Made by a program: the position numbers and the translations under genes. This document shows, in pieces, positions 367-30,310 of a stretch of DNA of 48,891 nucleotides. Position 1 is the first letter of the stretch. Each line of letters opens with the position of its first letter. The stretch is from Microscillaceae bacterium. GTDB lineage: Bacteria; Bacteroidota; Bacteroidia; Cytophagales; Microscillaceae. The notes below the pieces were generated by a model. That model did no database searches. It was not told the origin of the DNA and was given only the letters and a program-made list of their open reading frames with translations. The stretch spans positions 1-48,891 of the forward strand of contig JAABSX010000028.1 in assembly GCA_011390205.1 (NCBI GenBank). The letters are read 5' to 3'.

Positions 367-2172
367 TCAATGCTTGGCAAAAGAAAGAAAATTAGGTTTG
401 TCTAGCTTTCTAGAGATTCTAAAAGCAGCATTTACCAGCCCTACATGGCTGTAAGTCTGCGGAAAATTCCCCCACTGACTCCCTGTTTTTGAATTTACAT
501 CTTCACTCAGTAAGTTTAAATGATTGCCATAAGAAGCTAGATTTTCAAACTCTACAATGGCCTCGTCCAGTCTGCCCACACATGCCAATGCCTCCACATA
601 CCAAAACGCACAGATAAAGAAAGTAGATTCTGGCTCGCCAAAGTCATCTGCGTGTTTGTATCTAAAGAAAAGCCCATTGTCAGCCTTTAGCTCACTTTCT
701 AGTACTTCTAGGTGTTTTTTTGCTCTTTCTGAATGAGGGTCTAGGTAGTTCATCGTGATGAGCTGCAGAGTACTTGCGTCTAAGTTGCTCGTGCCGATAG
801 CCTGGGTATAAACGCCCCTCTCCTCATCATAGCAAGCTTCTATTTTTTCGGCAGCAAGCTGGGCAAGCCTTTCTGCTATTTCAATCATTTTATCATCTTT
901 CAAAAATTTGGCAATTCTCAATGCAGCATTGCTGCCTGCCCAATGAAATAAATAGGTATAGGAGTGATATTGTGCAAAATGCCGAAACTCCCACAGCCCT
1001 GCGTCGGGCTCTTCCATGGTTTCTTCTATCTTGCGAAGCAGTCTAAATATGAGCTTGTCAGAGTCTGTTCTTTCCTTGTAAGTGAATCTATTATCGGCGT
1101 AGAGTGGCAAAAGAGAAACCAAAATCTGACCATAGACATCATTCTGAATATGCTCATAAGCCTGATTTCCTAACCTTACAGGCTGGTTATTGTCCAAATA
1201 ACCCTTCAAATCTAGTATTTCTTCTACGATGTGGCTTTCTCCGCTAATGGTATAGAGTGGCTGCAGTCTTTCCTCATCTTTCATAGAGATATTAGCAATG
1301 TATTGGAAGTACATCTCTAGCTCTTCGAAATGCCCGATATGGTTAAAGGCATTCAGTGTATAATAAGTATCTCTCATCCAGCAGTATCTATAATCCCAAT
1401 TTCTTCCACTTTGGGGAGCTTCGGGGAGGCTCATCGTGGCAGAGGCGATGATGGCACCTGTATCCTCGTATTGGTGCATTTTAAGTGTGAGGGCAGAGCG
1501 AATGACCTGATGCTGGTAAAAATCACTGATGCTTGTACTCTTCACCCAGCGCCTCCAGTATTTAGTGGTATTGATGAGAAAGTCTTCGGCAGTCCGCTGA
1601 ATGGGTGCTTCCATAGGTGCGCCATAAGTCAAGATAAGGTATTTTGGATCATTTAGGAAGAACGATTGCTCATCTTCTAAGTGTGTCAGAGATACATTGG
1701 TGGTCAGACGCATGGTTTTTTCTAAGCCCTGAAACTCAAGGTGATTGCTGCCTCGGTGGCTTTTTGGCTTAAACGCTCCATAAGCCCCCACAGGATGGCA
1801 AGCGATTCTTACTCTGGGGTTTCCTGAGATTCGCTCCACTTTGCGGACAAGCATCAGAGGGCGATAATAGCGGTCATGCTGATAAAATCTTGGGGCAAAG
1901 TCGGTTACACGGTATGTACCCTCAGAGCAGCTAATCTCTGTGCAGAGTACGTTGGTGTTTTCTATATAATATTGATGTGTGGTGAAGCCTGTTTCTTCGT
2001 GTGGCAAGATGGTAAATTTGCCTCCCTTTTCACTGTCTAGCAAGCTCCCAAACACAAAAGTACTATCAAAACGAGGCCAGCAGAGCCATGCGATATTGGT
2101 GTCTTTGCCGATGTGTGCCAAGAATGCACAGTTTCCGATGAGTCCATAAGGGTATATGTGTTTTTCTTCCAT
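367..2172 (-). CDS. Glycoside hydrolase family 15 protein (glucoamylase/trehalase-like)
   Basis: This 601-residue protein has the bacterial GH15 layout. An N-terminal beta-sandwich domain opens with YGLIGNCAFLAHIG and WLCWPRFDSTFVFG. An (alpha/alpha)6 barrel follows, with the landmark NWDYRYCWMRD near residue 257, GLWEFR with the candidate catalytic Glu near residue 390, and a terminal helix pair near residue 511 (ESTFFICAFWYVEAL). Family members hydrolyse terminal alpha-glucosidic bonds of maltooligosaccharides or trehalose. No signal peptide is visible, so a cytoplasmic role in glycogen or trehalose turnover is likely. The length is normal and the start fits the usual N-terminus. It is the last gene of its strand run, with aroC upstream in the same direction; a 170-base gap makes co-transcription uncertain. 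The exact substrate is not determinable. Confidence 0.88.
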   Translation of the reverse strand: MEEKHIYPYGLIGNCAFLAHIGKDTNIAWLCWPRFDSTFVFGSLLDSEKGGKFTILPHEETGFTTHQYYIENTNVLCTEISCSEGTYRVTDFAPRFYQHDRYYRPLMLVRKVERISGNPRVRIACHPVGAYGAFKPKSHRGSNHLEFQGLEKTMRLTTNVSLTHLEDEQSFFLNDPKYLILTYGAPMEAPIQRTAEDFLINTTKYWRRWVKSTSISDFYQHQVIRSALTLKMHQYEDTGAIIASATMSLPEAPQSGRNWDYRYCWMRDTYYTLNAFNHIGHFEELEMYFQYIANISMKDEERLQPLYTISGESHIVEEILDLKGYLDNNQPVRLGNQAYEHIQNDVYGQILVSLLPLYADNRFTYKERTDSDKLIFRLLRKIEETMEEPDAGLWEFRHFAQYHSYTYLFHWAGSNAALRIAKFLKDDKMIEIAERLAQLAAEKIEACYDEERGVYTQAIGTSNLDASTLQLITMNYLDPHSERAKKHLEVLESELKADNGLFFRYKHADDFGEPESTFFICAFWYVEALACVGRLDEAIVEFENLASYGNHLNLLSEDVNSKTGSQWGNFPQTYSHVGLVNAAFRISRKLDKPNFLSFAKH

Positions 2173-2226: not shown

Positions 2227-2318
2227 TATCAGCATGTTAAATAAAGAATAATAGCCATTTTCCATTAAATAAATTCTCCATTTACTTATGATTATTTATT
2301 GAGAAGTTACGAATAATT

Positions 2319-2352
2319 CAGCCCCTACCCTACCTCTCTTGCTTAGTAGGGG
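2319..2352. repeat. Degenerate copy of a C-rich/G-rich palindromic element over the aroC stop
   Basis: CCCCTAC at 2322-2328 pairs with GTAGGGG at 2346-2352. The segment starts CAGCCCC and aligns, with a gap, to the longer element at 8927-8963, including the CTCTC centre. It covers the last codons (Phe-Pro-Tyr-stop) of aroC. I read it as a second, eroded member of a dispersed repeat; two copies in one window are thin support. Confidence 0.5.
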
Positions 2353-3440
2353 AATATTGAATCTAGTTTACTGTTTTTATTTCTCAGATAAAAATCAGCC
2401 AGCACTAGAGCCGCCATAGCTTCTACTATAGGCACCGCACGAGGTACTACACAGGGGTCATGCCTGCCCTTGCCCGATACTTTGACGGCTTCCCCCTCTT
2501 CGTTGAGGCTGTCTTGCTCACGCATCGTAGTGGCTACAGGCTTAAAAGCCACTCTAAAATAAATATCTTCCCCATTGCTGATGCCTCCTTGGATACCGCC
2601 TGAGTGGTTACTCTTTGTATGGACTTCTTCGTTTTCTTTGATAAAAATATCATTGTGTTCTGAGCCACGCATACGCACCCCTTCAAAGCCACTTCCATAT
2701 TCAAAACCTTTTACGGCATTGATGCTCAGCATGGCTTTTCCTAGCTCTGCGTGCAGTTTATCAAAAACAGGTTCTCCCCAGCCTACAGGCACATTCTGAA
2801 TCACTGCCGAGACCACCCCACCAATGGTATCCCCTTCTTTTCGGATTTGCTTGATGTAGTCTTCCATTTCTTGGGCAAGGGCTGTATCAGGGCAACGCAC
2901 AGCATTGCTTTCGGTGAGGCTTAGGTCTAGAGATTGGTAGCTTTTCTCTAGCTTCATCTTGCCCACTTCAGATACATATGCCTGAATCTCGATATTGGCC
3001 ACTCGTTTGAGCAATAGTTTTGCGATGGCACCTGCCGCCACCCGTGCTGCAGTTTCTCTTGCGGAGCTACGCCCACCTCCACGGTAATCCCGAATGCCAT
3101 ATTTTACGGAATAAGTATAATCTGCATGAGAAGGCCTAAATTTATCTGCGATATGGCTATAATCTTTGCTTTTGGCATCTTGGTTACGAATCACGATTGC
3201 GATGGGTGTACCCGTGGATACTCCCTCAAATACGCCTGATAAAATCTCAAAAGTATCTTCTTCTTTGCGTTGTGTAACGATGCTAGACTGCCCAGGACGA
3301 CGGCGAGAAAGCTCTGACTGGATAAATACCTCATCTATCTCAAGCCCTGCAGGGCAGCCATCTATCACAACCCCTATCGCCAAGCCATGTGACTCACCAA
3401 AGGTGCTAATCTGGAATAATGTGCCGTAAGTATTGTTCAA
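2343..3440 (-). CDS. aroC: Chorismate synthase
   Basis: Converts 5-enolpyruvylshikimate-3-phosphate to chorismate, the last step of the shikimate pathway, using reduced FMN. The 365-residue length is typical. The N-terminus [19 protein letters not shown] contains the conserved GESHG signature. The central family signature [17 protein letters not shown] is intact, as is the RPGHADYTY-like segment (here RPSHADYTY). The C-terminal signature is also intact ([17 protein letters not shown]). The start is the obvious one. The gene stands alone in its direction, 170 bases upstream of the GH15 gene. The last codons overlap a palindromic repeat at 2319-2352, so the extreme C-terminus may differ slightly from relatives. 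Confidence 0.97.
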
Positions 3441-8285: not shown

Positions 8286-9467
8286 CTAGCACCCATAAAA
8301 CTCAAAAATAGACTCAATGACAAGATTTTGATTTTCTGCACTTAATTCATAGAAAAAAGGTACACGCAAAAGCCTATCAGCATAGGCATTGCTATTTGGA
8401 AGTTCGCCCCCACTGTGTTTGTCTTGATAGTAAGATGACTTATGTAAAGGAAGATAATGAAAGACTGCTAAAATACCTTTTAAACTCAAAAATTTGATGA
8501 GTTTTGTTCTCTCACTTTTATTGGCACAAAGCAGGTAAAAAATAGCTGCATTGTTGGTCGCATAATGAGGAATTTTAGCCAACTGTATTTTGCCTTCTCT
8601 CTCAAGTTTCTGTAATGCATCATTATACATTTGCCAGATTTCTTTTCGGCGGTTCTGGATATCATCTAAATTTTCGAGCTGTGCATAAAGGAAGGCTGCA
8701 ATGATATCAGAAGGCAAGAAAGAACTTCCAATGTCCACCCAACCATATTTATCTATCTCACCCCTAAAAAAAGCAGCGCGATTTGTACCCTTCTCACGGA
8801 TAATCTCGGCACGCTGCATAAAGTGTTTGTCATTGATGACCAGCATGCCCCCTTCCCCTGAAATGATGTTTTTGGTTTCGTGGAAAGAAAAAGTAGCAAG
8901 GTGTCCGATGCTACCTAGAGGAACTCCAGCCCCACCCCTAGCCCCCCCTCTCAAGGAAGGGGGATTAAGGCCAAAAGGATTGTAGTAGCTATCGATGGCT
9001 TGGGCAGCATCTTCTACCACGAATAAGTTATGTTTGTGGGCTATGGCCATAATTTTGTCCATATCACAAGCTATGCCCGCATAATGCACTGCAATGATGG
9101 CTTTGGTTTTAGGACTAATTAAGCTTTCTATGGTATCAGCGTCTATGTTAGGCGTATTTGCTTCGCTATCGGCAAAGATGATTTTTGCACCACGCAGCAC
9201 GAAAGCATTGACCGTGCTGACAAAGGTATAACTGGGTGCAATGACTTCATCACCTGCTCGTATATCTAGCAAAATGGCACACATCTCTAAGGCATCAGTG
9301 CAGGAGGTGGTGAGGAGGCATTTTTTAAAGCCGTACCTTTGCTCAAAAAATTGATGGCATTTTTTGGTGAATAAGCCATCGCCTGATATTTTGCCCGAAG
9401 CGACCGCCTCACGGATATATTCTGTTTCTTTGCCTGTGAGGTAGGGTTTGTTGAAGGGGATTTGCAT
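8286..9467 (-). CDS. dTDP-4-amino-4,6-dideoxygalactose transaminase (WecE/RffA-like)
   Basis: A PLP-dependent DegT/DnrJ/EryC1 sugar aminotransferase of 393 residues that puts an amino group on a dTDP-4-keto-6-deoxyhexose. The N-terminus (PFNKPYLTGKETEYI), the segment SCTDALEMCAILLDI, the strand VIAPSYTFVSTVNAF and the PLP-lysine region FSFHETKNIISGEGGM are those of WecE/RffA. About 20 residues stand between AIDSYY and PLGSIGH where relatives have about 3. The extra part, NPPSLRGGARGGAG with its flanks, is encoded by a C-rich/G-rich palindromic repeat (8927-8963). It would sit in a loop before the PLP lysine. The gene is the last of a five-gene minus-strand run with a formyltransferase and a GT2. 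Confidence 0.9.
   Translation of the reverse strand: MQIPFNKPYLTGKETEYIREAVASGKISGDGLFTKKCHQFFEQRYGFKKCLLTTSCTDALEMCAILLDIRAGDEVIAPSYTFVSTVNAFVLRGAKIIFADSEANTPNIDADTIESLISPKTKAIIAVHYAGIACDMDKIMAIAHKHNLFVVEDAAQAIDSYYNPFGLNPPSLRGGARGGAGVPLGSIGHLATFSFHETKNIISGEGGMLVINDKHFMQRAEIIREKGTNRAAFFRGEIDKYGWVDIGSSFLPSDIIAAFLYAQLENLDDIQNRRKEIWQMYNDALQKLEREGKIQLAKIPHYATNNAAIFYLLCANKSERTKLIKFLSLKGILAVFHYLPLHKSSYYQDKHSGGELPNSNAYADRLLRVPFFYELSAENQNLVIESIFEFYGC
8927..8963. repeat. Palindromic repeat inserted in frame in the aminotransferase
   Basis: CCCCCT at 8944-8949 pairs with AGGGGG at 8958-8963 around an 8-base loop. A C-rich flank (CAGCCCCACCCCTAG) precedes it. The base composition is far more GC-rich than the gene around it, and it keeps the reading frame. 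A degenerate relative lies at 2319-2352. Confidence 0.7.
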
Positions 9468-27868: not shown

Positions 27869-30310
27869 ATGAAAATACCTAATACCTACATATTATTCCT
27901 CTTGCTGCTTATGTTTAGCCTGCAAGGCTTTGGACAAGATACCTCCAATGTGCAGGATACCTCCAAAAGTACAAGAGAACTCATCACTGAGGCTCGCATG
28001 TATCGTGTAAAAAATGATGTAGAAAACGCACTTAAAAGCTACATCAAAGCCGAAAGACAGTGGGGAAAAGAAAAAAGAAGTCTAAAGTCAGAAGAACTTT
28101 ACCTAGAAATTGCCCTCTTCTTTGATAGCCTCAGCGTAAATGACAAGGCAAGAGAATACTTCTTTGATGCCTATGCCCAAACAAAGGTAGAAGAAAAAAA
28201 ATCTGAAATCTTGGTGTATATCGCAGAGTCCTTCTTCAAAAGTGGAGATGCATACCTCAAAGAAGCTATCCAATATTATTTGCAAGCACTCCCCATCATA
28301 CAAAAAGAAAATAACAACCAAAAAGAAGTCAAAATACTCGGCGAAATAGCCAATGCCTACACTCACCCAGAAATTGGAAAACTTGATACGGCTTTTGACT
28401 ACAGAAAAAAAATACTAGAAATAGAAAACCGTCAGAAATCTCCACAAAGACTTGCCTCCGCTTGGAATAACCTCGCTTATACCAACAGACTCATCGCCAG
28501 TAGAGAAATCAAACGAAACAACCGAAACGTAGCCGCTGATACACTCAAAAGTGCACTCAAATACATAGAAAAAGCTACAATACTAGCGAAACAAGACAAA
28601 AATATAGAGGAAAATAGACTCATCACACTCCTCAACCTAGGCGTAATAGAGCAAAGCTTAGGAAACCAAGAACAAGCCCTCAAGCACCTGCAAGAAGTGC
28701 TTAACCAAAGAAAAAAACAACAGAATACACTTGAAATTGCCCGAACGCAAAACCTCATCGCAAAGCTTCACTATTACCGAAATGACTACTCCGAAGCACG
28801 AATCATAGCAAACCAAGCACTCAAAAATGCAAAAATTATCAATGCAAAACCCGAAATGCAGACCAGCTACGAAATCTTGGCAGATGTGCACGAAAAAATT
28901 GCTGACTTCAGAAAACTCTCTAGATACAAAGATTCTATCTACCTTATCCAAAGTGAACTCACCGTAGATGCTATCAAACAACAACAAAAACAAACTAAAT
29001 ACAAAGACATTGCAAGTGATGAACTAGAACAAGCTCTCACACAAGAAGCAAAGGAAGAACAAGCAAAAAGACTCAAAGCAGATGCTGAAGCCCAAAGAGC
29101 CTTGGCTCAAAAGGCTGAGTCTGATAGACAAAAAGCACAAGCAGAAGCCGCAACTGCCAGAGCCGATGCCGCCAATGCCATCATACTACAGCAAAAAGCA
29201 ATGGCAGAAAAAGCAAAAGCAGAAGCAGAAGCTGAAAAACAAAAAGCTGAAAAAGCAAAAGCAGAAGCTGAAACAGAAAAACAAAAAGCTGAAAAACAAA
29301 AAGCTGAAGCTGATAGGAAAGCTGCACAAGCCGAAAAAGCAAAAGCAGAAGCCGATAAAAGAAATGCAGAAGCAAAAGCAGAAGCCGCCGAAAAAGATGC
29401 TCAAAATGCTACACGAATCTTTGCTTTCCTTGCTGTGCTTGGATTCTTCGTACTTGTTATCATATTTATTCTGATTTTTTATTATAAAAATAGACACAAA
29501 AACAAACTCCTCACCGCACAAAATGATAAAATACAACAACAAAACACAAACCTAGAAGCACAAAAGAAAGAAATAGAAAAACAACGTGATAGCCTCATGG
29601 AAATGAACGAAGAAATCAAACAACAAAATGAGGAAATAGAAGCACAAAGAGATATTATAGAACTAGAAAAAGAAGAATCAGAAAAACTACTGCTCAATAT
29701 CCTACCCCAAACCGTAGCCTACGAACTCAAAGAAAAAGGAACTGCCACCCCAAAATCTTACGAAATGGTCTCCGTACTCTTTACCGATTTTAAAGGATTT
29801 ACCGTGGCTACCGAACACATGAACCCCACAGAAGTAATCAGAGAATTAGACAAATGCTTCGGCGCTTTTGACCAAATCTGTGAAAAATATGGGCTCGAAA
29901 AAATAAAAACCATCGGAGATGCTTATATGTGTGCAGGCGGAATCCCCATTGAAAACAACACCAACCACATAGATGCTGTCAGGGCTGGGCTAGAGATTCA
30001 GGCATTTATGCAGAACCTCAGAAAAGAACGTGAAGCCAGAGGCGAACCTTATTGGGAGCTACGCCTTGGCATCAACACAGGCCCACTCGTAGCAGGGGTG
30101 GTAGGCACAAAGAAATTTGCCTATGACATCTGGGGAGACACCGTCAATACTGCCGCCCGTATGGAAAGCTCAGGCGTGCCTAACATGGTCAATATCTCAG
30201 GAGCTACCTACAAACTGATTAAAGACCTATTCGTCTGCGAATACAGGGGCAAGCTGCCAGCCAAAAATAAAGGAGATGTAGATATGTACTTCGTAATTAG
30301 TGAAAAATAA
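27869..30310 (+). CDS. Membrane adenylate cyclase with TPR sensor
   Basis: An 813-residue class III cyclase. After a signal peptide (to about residue 22) come periplasmic TPR-like helices (about 40-390), then a long Ala-Lys-Glu coiled coil (390-510), a membrane helix near 516-540, a second coiled coil, and the cyclase domain from about 625. Metal-binding aspartates are in SVLFTDFKGFT and KTIGDAYM. The base-selecting Lys (KTIGD) and Asp (YDIWGD) fit ATP, and NTAARMES supplies the Asn and Arg. It would make cAMP in response to a periplasmic signal. The coiled coil is encoded by near-tandem GCAGAAAAAGCAAAA-type units. The gene stands alone. Confidence 0.9.
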   Translation: MKIPNTYILFLLLLMFSLQGFGQDTSNVQDTSKSTRELITEARMYRVKNDVENALKSYIKAERQWGKEKRSLKSEELYLEIALFFDSLSVNDKAREYFFDAYAQTKVEEKKSEILVYIAESFFKSGDAYLKEAIQYYLQALPIIQKENNNQKEVKILGEIANAYTHPEIGKLDTAFDYRKKILEIENRQKSPQRLASAWNNLAYTNRLIASREIKRNNRNVAADTLKSALKYIEKATILAKQDKNIEENRLITLLNLGVIEQSLGNQEQALKHLQEVLNQRKKQQNTLEIARTQNLIAKLHYYRNDYSEARIIANQALKNAKIINAKPEMQTSYEILADVHEKIADFRKLSRYKDSIYLIQSELTVDAIKQQQKQTKYKDIASDELEQALTQEAKEEQAKRLKADAEAQRALAQKAESDRQKAQAEAATARADAANAIILQQKAMAEKAKAEAEAEKQKAEKAKAEAETEKQKAEKQKAEADRKAAQAEKAKAEADKRNAEAKAEAAEKDAQNATRIFAFLAVLGFFVLVIIFILIFYYKNRHKNKLLTAQNDKIQQQNTNLEAQKKEIEKQRDSLMEMNEEIKQQNEEIEAQRDIIELEKEESEKLLLNILPQTVAYELKEKGTATPKSYEMVSVLFTDFKGFTVATEHMNPTEVIRELDKCFGAFDQICEKYGLEKIKTIGDAYMCAGGIPIENNTNHIDAVRAGLEIQAFMQNLRKEREARGEPYWELRLGINTGPLVAGVVGTKKFAYDIWGDTVNTAARMESSGVPNMVNISGATYKLIKDLFVCEYRGKLPAKNKGDVDMYFVISEK

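Follow-up and report, generated by a model that had tools for sequence, protein, structure and literature searches.

How does the gene for a conserved sugar aminotransferase come to carry, in frame and at a single turn of its product, some twenty codons of C/G-rich palindromic DNA? The question arises from a contig of a Microscillaceae bacterium, a stretch of 48,891 nucleotides termed here the window, in which a sequence-only reading had proposed the insertion of such a palindrome. The insert is very probably a copy of a C/G-rich, REP/MITE-like hairpin family residing in an AT-rich genome, with other dialects in several relatives, and the family is presumed to be non-autonomous mobile DNA. Three features of the window are central to the question:

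8286–9467, minus strand: WecE-type sugar aminotransferase gene (dTDP-4-amino-4,6-dideoxygalactose transaminase), 393 aa, open frame (PF01041, E 3.6e-86).
8922–8981, minus strand: 20 codons encoding NPFGLNPPSLRGGARGGAGV, residues 163–182, delimited by DNA comparison with relatives.
8923–8966, minus strand: hairpin repeat of the "internal" type, with a C-rich arm, TTGAG loop, G-rich arm and tail CTAGGGGTGGGG (44 bases, matched by model R2, described below).

The product of the gene scores above the curated NCBIfam cut-offs of NF008687 (553.7 bits, cut-off 375) and TIGR02379 (515.3 bits, cut-off 434.85), and also matches the structures 6blg (Klebsiella) and 4piw and 4zah (E. coli WecE); on these profile matches it is assigned to the WecE / dTDP-4-amino-4,6-dideoxygalactose transaminase family. 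The open reading frame runs without a stop through AIDSYY-NPFGLNPPSLRGGARGGAGV-PLGSIGH, confirming the in-frame insert proposed between these two flanks at 20 codons, and the sequences of structures 4piw and 6blg display a 17-residue gap opposite it. The claim of a C/G-rich composition unlike the surroundings was likewise borne out, the GC content of the 60-base insert being 0.58 as against 0.41 for the remainder of the gene and 0.40 for the window. The palindrome itself proved to be a hairpin with imperfect pairing, a T standing opposite a G in the predicted stem, and the element does lie at 8927–8963 as first given, although the model match extends slightly beyond both ends.

Alignment with WecE relatives, a check proposed at the outset, was performed on a homologue set of 104 rows (96 distinct sequences) and revealed a short turn in 93 of the 96, leaving clear long inserts in the window gene and in L110, a homologue from a Paludibacter metagenome-assembled genome (MAG), and a modest one in L085, from another Paludibacter MAG. 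The insert is absent from relatives 72–77% identical to the window gene. Its site is a WecE turn of naturally variable length, with 7, 11, 12 or 17 residues between fixed points in homologues other than the window gene and L110; among nine homologues compared as DNA, the codons at the site numbered 3 (n = 4), 7 (n = 3) or 8 (n = 1), L110 being the long case. An AlphaFold2 model built with 39 sequences attained a mean pLDDT of 85.5 and fell below 50 at residues 168–179, such that the suggested loop modelling does return the insert as a low-confidence stretch; since pLDDT also drops below 50 at residues 197–204, 228–240, and 242–247, low confidence is not peculiar to it. D153 and K199 are among the positions conserved without exception across the 39 aligned sequences, which include that of the window, and the enzyme apart from the insert looks intact.

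Strict searches initially portrayed the insert as unique. In its own genome (a draft of 124 contigs), only the window copy was retrieved by the whole insert stretch, by a 34-base pattern with 3 mismatches and by a 14-base core with 1 mismatch, and a 21-base core occurred once in the window at up to 3 mismatches (shuffle mean 0.00). A 20-base core matched one of 15 genomes of the family, namely the window's genome, and none of the 14 others; a gapped pattern drawn from the window copy matched one of 390 genomes of the order, in the window only, and four of 395 genomes across the phylum, the other three matches being hairpins of other kinds that bear a TTAGGGG or TTTAGGGG tail. One pattern run on viral contigs and one plasmid search each found nothing. 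The single-copy reading derived from the strict DNA and pattern searches was overturned by a relaxed hairpin-plus-tail pattern, which yielded 78 matches in the same genome (52 forward and 26 reverse, many of them nested) as against four for the reversed-pattern control (3 forward and 1 reverse). The 78 matches were merged into 46 clusters, of which C28:46914, C31:67795, C39:12833, and C62:31226 were judged by eye to be plain coding sequence and removed; the remaining 42 stem from one pattern, and further copies exist.

The family thus brought to light consists of small dispersed hairpins with a tail YTAGGGG or GGGGTGGGG, occurring singly, paired or compounded. A terminal unit, with the consensus ATTCCCCCTTCGGGGGTTAGGGGGCTG, can be told from an internal unit, approximately TCCCCCTCCCCTGAGGGGAGGGTTGGGGTGGGGTCT, the modelled units being 27 and 42 positions long. 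Both types adjoin at C50, C82, C35, and C58, and in C50 and C82, compound copies of 96 and 92 bases, inverted terminal units flank an internal one. It is the internal unit that the window copy resembles, as a lone and divergent copy rather than a compound element. Two models were prepared: R1 from 26 units judged distinct by eye among 57 (the first differs from the genome at its first base), and R2, a covariance model of nine internal units of our choosing, with the window copy excluded. Seven of the nine R2 rows came from the pattern reading (the window copy and one reverse reading being omitted) and two were others; all nine match the genome letter for letter. R2 matched the genome at 20 places (E ≤ 0.1) and R1 at 63 (E ≤ 0.01), training copies counted in. 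The genome-wide search for more copies that had been called for was therefore rewarded by the relaxed pattern and by both models; as to the thought that a lack of further copies would tell against a mobile palindrome, a related family was found, but no near-identical copy.

R2 recovers the window copy at full length, scoring 28.7 bits (E 3.5e-7) when the window is searched and 28.8 bits (E 3.2e-5) when the whole genome is, and R1 scores it at 21.3 bits (E 0.0018). Its mean alignment score of 18.1 was reached by none of 2000 arm-preserving shuffles (mean 11.0, maximum 17.3). By this sequence kinship, the window copy qualifies as a member of its own genome's hairpin family. These results bear directly on the proposal that the 20 residues merely represent a loop lengthened in this lineage in the ordinary way, C/G-rich by chance and unrelated to the repeats. 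The spread of turn lengths among homologues given above and the failure of strict searches to find a second copy would both suit such an extension, but a model trained on other copies does find it, the shuffles do not reproduce its score, and clear in-frame repeat copies exist in other genes of the genome; an ordinary extension is accordingly judged quite improbable. The next-best R2 place in the window is as follows:

2316–2355, minus strand: weak second unit at the 3′ terminus of the gene for chorismate synthase (2343–3440, minus strand; PF01264, E 1.4e-145), with 13.4 bits, E 0.026 by R2 and 14.4 bits, E 0.11 by R1.

This unit is possibly a decayed one. The chorismate synthase frame ends with DSIFPY and its stop inside the match, where a repeat would contribute the final residues along with the stop codon. 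Elsewhere in the window, positions 29061–29683 hold a long run of short, imperfect repeats in which AAAGCTGAA and AAAGCAGAA abound.

Eight of the 42 own-genome clusters lie inside open reading frames, within or between Pfam matches. The search for copies inside genes, also advised in the sequence-only reading, thereby yielded seven Pfam-matched genes with in-frame copies:

The window gene.
A Type ISP enzyme (two sites).
An MmeI-like enzyme.
An HTTM/gamma-carboxylase-like protein.
An Eco57I-type enzyme.
A formylglycine-generating-enzyme-like protein.
An RND pump.

The pump contains a whole compound element in frame, and the HTTM/gamma-carboxylase-like protein has two HTTM stretches, the one displayed lying after the site. 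Comparison with known structures revealed 11 extra residues in the MmeI-like enzyme (against 5hr4) and, in the Type ISP enzyme (against 7lo5), 5 at one site and none at the other; structure alignment of the RND pump disclosed no net length gain, its site falling in a poorly aligned region. At the second Type ISP site and in the pump, the case for insertion is consequently made by the repeat sequence. Other copies in open reading frames are uncertain, being near the likely start (C41, C58, C61, C64, C84, and C91), near the end of the frame (C5) or within a transposase fragment at the edge of a contig (C103). Three of the seven genes (L128, L132, and L143; C31, C32, and C38) match restriction-modification families.

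Four relatives were found to hold hairpin families as well, and the copies read display species dialects. Among the best candidates scored (150 in many genomes, for which the counts are lower bounds), R2 at E ≤ 0.1 matched at least 32 places in G002, 25 in G014, 125 in G006, and 96 in G007; at least 2 in G013, 3 in G005, 2 in G034, and 1 in G770, from which L110 comes; and none in G010 and G015. R1 at E ≤ 0.01 matched at least 114 places in G002, 151 in G007, and 18 in G770, and none among the candidates scored in the other six genomes searched. Host genes in the relatives, named by NCBIfam or Pfam, include a MurF-alanine racemase (G002), the fused isobutyryl-CoA mutase IcmF (G007), and an asparagine synthase-like protein (G006), and leucyl-tRNA synthetase hosts in-frame copies in both G006 and G014. 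In the IcmF gene (L251, 4684–4891, minus strand), two in-frame hairpin units lie approximately 50 residues apart. G006 and G007 are Cytophagales MAGs from which the WecE homologues L039 and L042 derive; in stretches of them chosen for their hits, as opposed to whole genomes, clusters inside open reading frames of 150 aa or more, flanked on each side by 30 residues or more, numbered 4 of 23 (three genes) and 4 of 44, respectively. All 63 R1 rows entered this count, as did 46 of the 51 R2 rows, five short overlapping ones being omitted.

That most sampled clusters fall outside long frames, and that paired copies resemble REP dimers, could be taken to mean that the repeats serve as functional signals at the RNA or DNA level, such as terminators or mRNA stabilisers, whose presence in a few genes is accidental. 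Several copies lie within conserved domains with the frame unbroken, though, and as RNA the window copy has a fold energy about equal to that of same-composition shuffles (z of 0.22, −0.70, and 0.36 for three cuts). A signal function is hence considered unlikely as the general account, and the evidence for the window copy is sequence kinship, with no sign of selected RNA structure.

The WecE turn has apparently been hit more than once. L110, 63% identical to the window gene, carries 34–39 extra residues at the same turn, with inverted hairpins at either end of the insert, both of which are detected by R1 (E 0.00035 and 0.0014 over two loci). L085 has 5–10 extra residues there, and its DNA resembles by eye one decayed unit, for which R1 made no report. 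The same insertion in distant homologues with unrelated DNA had been named beforehand as evidence against a mobile palindrome, and L110 answers to this in part; the hairpins that R1 finds at both ends of its insert, however, make L110 favour a permissive site struck on more than one occasion. As closer relatives of the window gene lack the insert, a tolerant turn struck independently in different bacteria would be the simplest reading. The lengthening of the turn in two other homologues, one by model-found hairpins and the other by hairpin-like DNA seen by eye, might instead be ascribed to recruitment of the insert for enzyme function, for instance through a new contact at the turn. That the three lengthened sequences differ, that the structural model assigns low confidence to the insert and that 93 of the 96 distinct sequences manage without one render recruitment the least credible of the alternatives, with very little to commend it.

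Under the favoured account of a hairpin copy, the repeat would have reached the WecE-type gene by its own family's movement. It would have been retained because its net length is a multiple of three, because three or four of the six frames of a single unit are free of stops (as found in the single units tested), and because the enzyme should suffer little from a Pro/Gly/Arg-rich loop in this position. The copy is presumed to have a neutral or mildly deleterious effect and to confer no new function.

Kindred systems provide a frame for these findings. The yeast mitochondrial genome, itself AT-rich, harbours C/G-rich palindromes known as GC clusters, some of them within var1. The hairpins described here are alike in being C/G-rich palindromes in an AT-rich genome and differ in that the yeast clusters are organellar, a likeness drawn from description. 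In-frame palindromes are best known from Rickettsia, whose palindromic elements (RPEs) are described as a family with copies both intergenic and in frame within conserved proteins (PMC2229807, PMC10969869), and a similar process in other prokaryotes is considered conceivable in the RPE review (PMC10969869). The likening of the window insert to RPEs, made in the sequence-only reading, is supported insofar as a palindromic family occurs here too in frame inside conserved protein genes, and falls short in that near-identical copies were not found. RPEs are given as 105–146 bp long (PMC2229807), unlike the 44-base window match and the compounds of 92 and 96 bases, and the present units are C/G-rich and from Bacteroidota, the comparison being one of descriptions and not of sequences. 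The element appears to behave like a Rickettsia palindromic element, by analogy, but is not filed as one.

REP sequences of the GTAG and CGTC types are likewise reported within open reading frames as single, paired or clustered copies, with dimers and groups encoding 20–30 residues, and in one case two species were hit at about the same site (PMC3733652). The present repeats share with intragenic REPs the short hairpins, the single, paired or clustered arrangement and the location of some copies within frames (PMC3733652), but neither unit consensus bears a GTAG or CGTC tag: GTAG, on one strand or the other, is present in 2 of the 26 rows of R1 and 1 of the 9 of R2, and CGTC in none. ERIC and Correia MITEs are also described as small repeats with in-frame fusions, and resemble the present family in their small size and in such fusions (PMC2229807). 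Inverted ends, seen by eye in the compound or paired copies C50, C82, and C38 and not in the window copy, would be a third point of likeness. In-frame REP and MITE insertions being already known, the new addition is a Bacteroidota hairpin family with its own dialects. Literature searches, mostly short of full texts, found no description of Bacteroidota hairpin elements, and one with the insert peptide found nothing. What these several relatives contribute, each with its own dialect and with copies in conserved genes, together with one protein turn apparently hit repeatedly in different bacteria, is a natural series for asking which protein sites tolerate insertions of some 10–40 residues.

Two candidates for the mobiliser were considered. 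RAYT-like genes (PF01797) were located at 48 places in 14 of 18 genomes, and no R1 or R2 match at E ≤ 0.1 was found at 13 of the 48 loci, both own-genome places included, although models of the own-genome dialect could miss other dialects. The RAYT link was dropped, the hairpins not flanking the 13 loci examined; in this respect the repeats differ from GTAG REPs, and CGTC repeats are described as likewise not flanking RAYT genes (PMC3733652). The second candidate is DUF559 (PF04480), which in the leucyl-tRNA synthetases of G006 and G014 lies in frame between inverted R2 hairpins, in one open frame:

L187, 1501–1542, minus strand, and 1937–2062, plus strand: hairpins in a leucyl-tRNA synthetase (R2).
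L189, 1501–1546, minus strand, and 1959–2003, plus strand: hairpins in a leucyl-tRNA synthetase (R2).

In L189, residues 303–464, approximately 160, are extra compared with the Thermus enzyme (1h3n). An Eco57I-type enzyme of G005 (L182, 2148–2694) also contains DUF559 in frame with repeats around it, one side having weak matches only. G006 and G014 share a genus label, so that the DUF559 cases may amount to two independent events in all. From such cases one could argue for a mobile element inserted in frame, with the hairpins as its ends, comprising a hairpin, the DUF559 nuclease-like domain and an inverted hairpin, read as host protein; the element would then be homing-endonuclease-like without splicing, and bare hairpins such as that in WecE would be its non-autonomous relatives. 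This reading is unlikely, and is not the favoured one. As a general hairpin partner DUF559 was rejected, the domain being absent near most hairpins: a profile of three sequences found it, among the loci examined, only in L187, in L189, and in one G005 gene (L175, L182, and L190), and once in 852,330 further bases (224,088 of G006 and 228,242 of G007, two samples selected for their hairpins, plus 400,000 from the own genome), again in the G006 leucyl-tRNA synthetase. No description of hairpin-flanked DUF559 was found in the literature, searched mostly short of full texts. The leucyl-tRNA synthetase with its hairpin-flanked nuclease-like domain nevertheless offers a testable lead to what moves the repeats. 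Near the DUF559 of L182, repeated hairpin-encoded peptides, SPLSRGAGGV and similar, were also observed.
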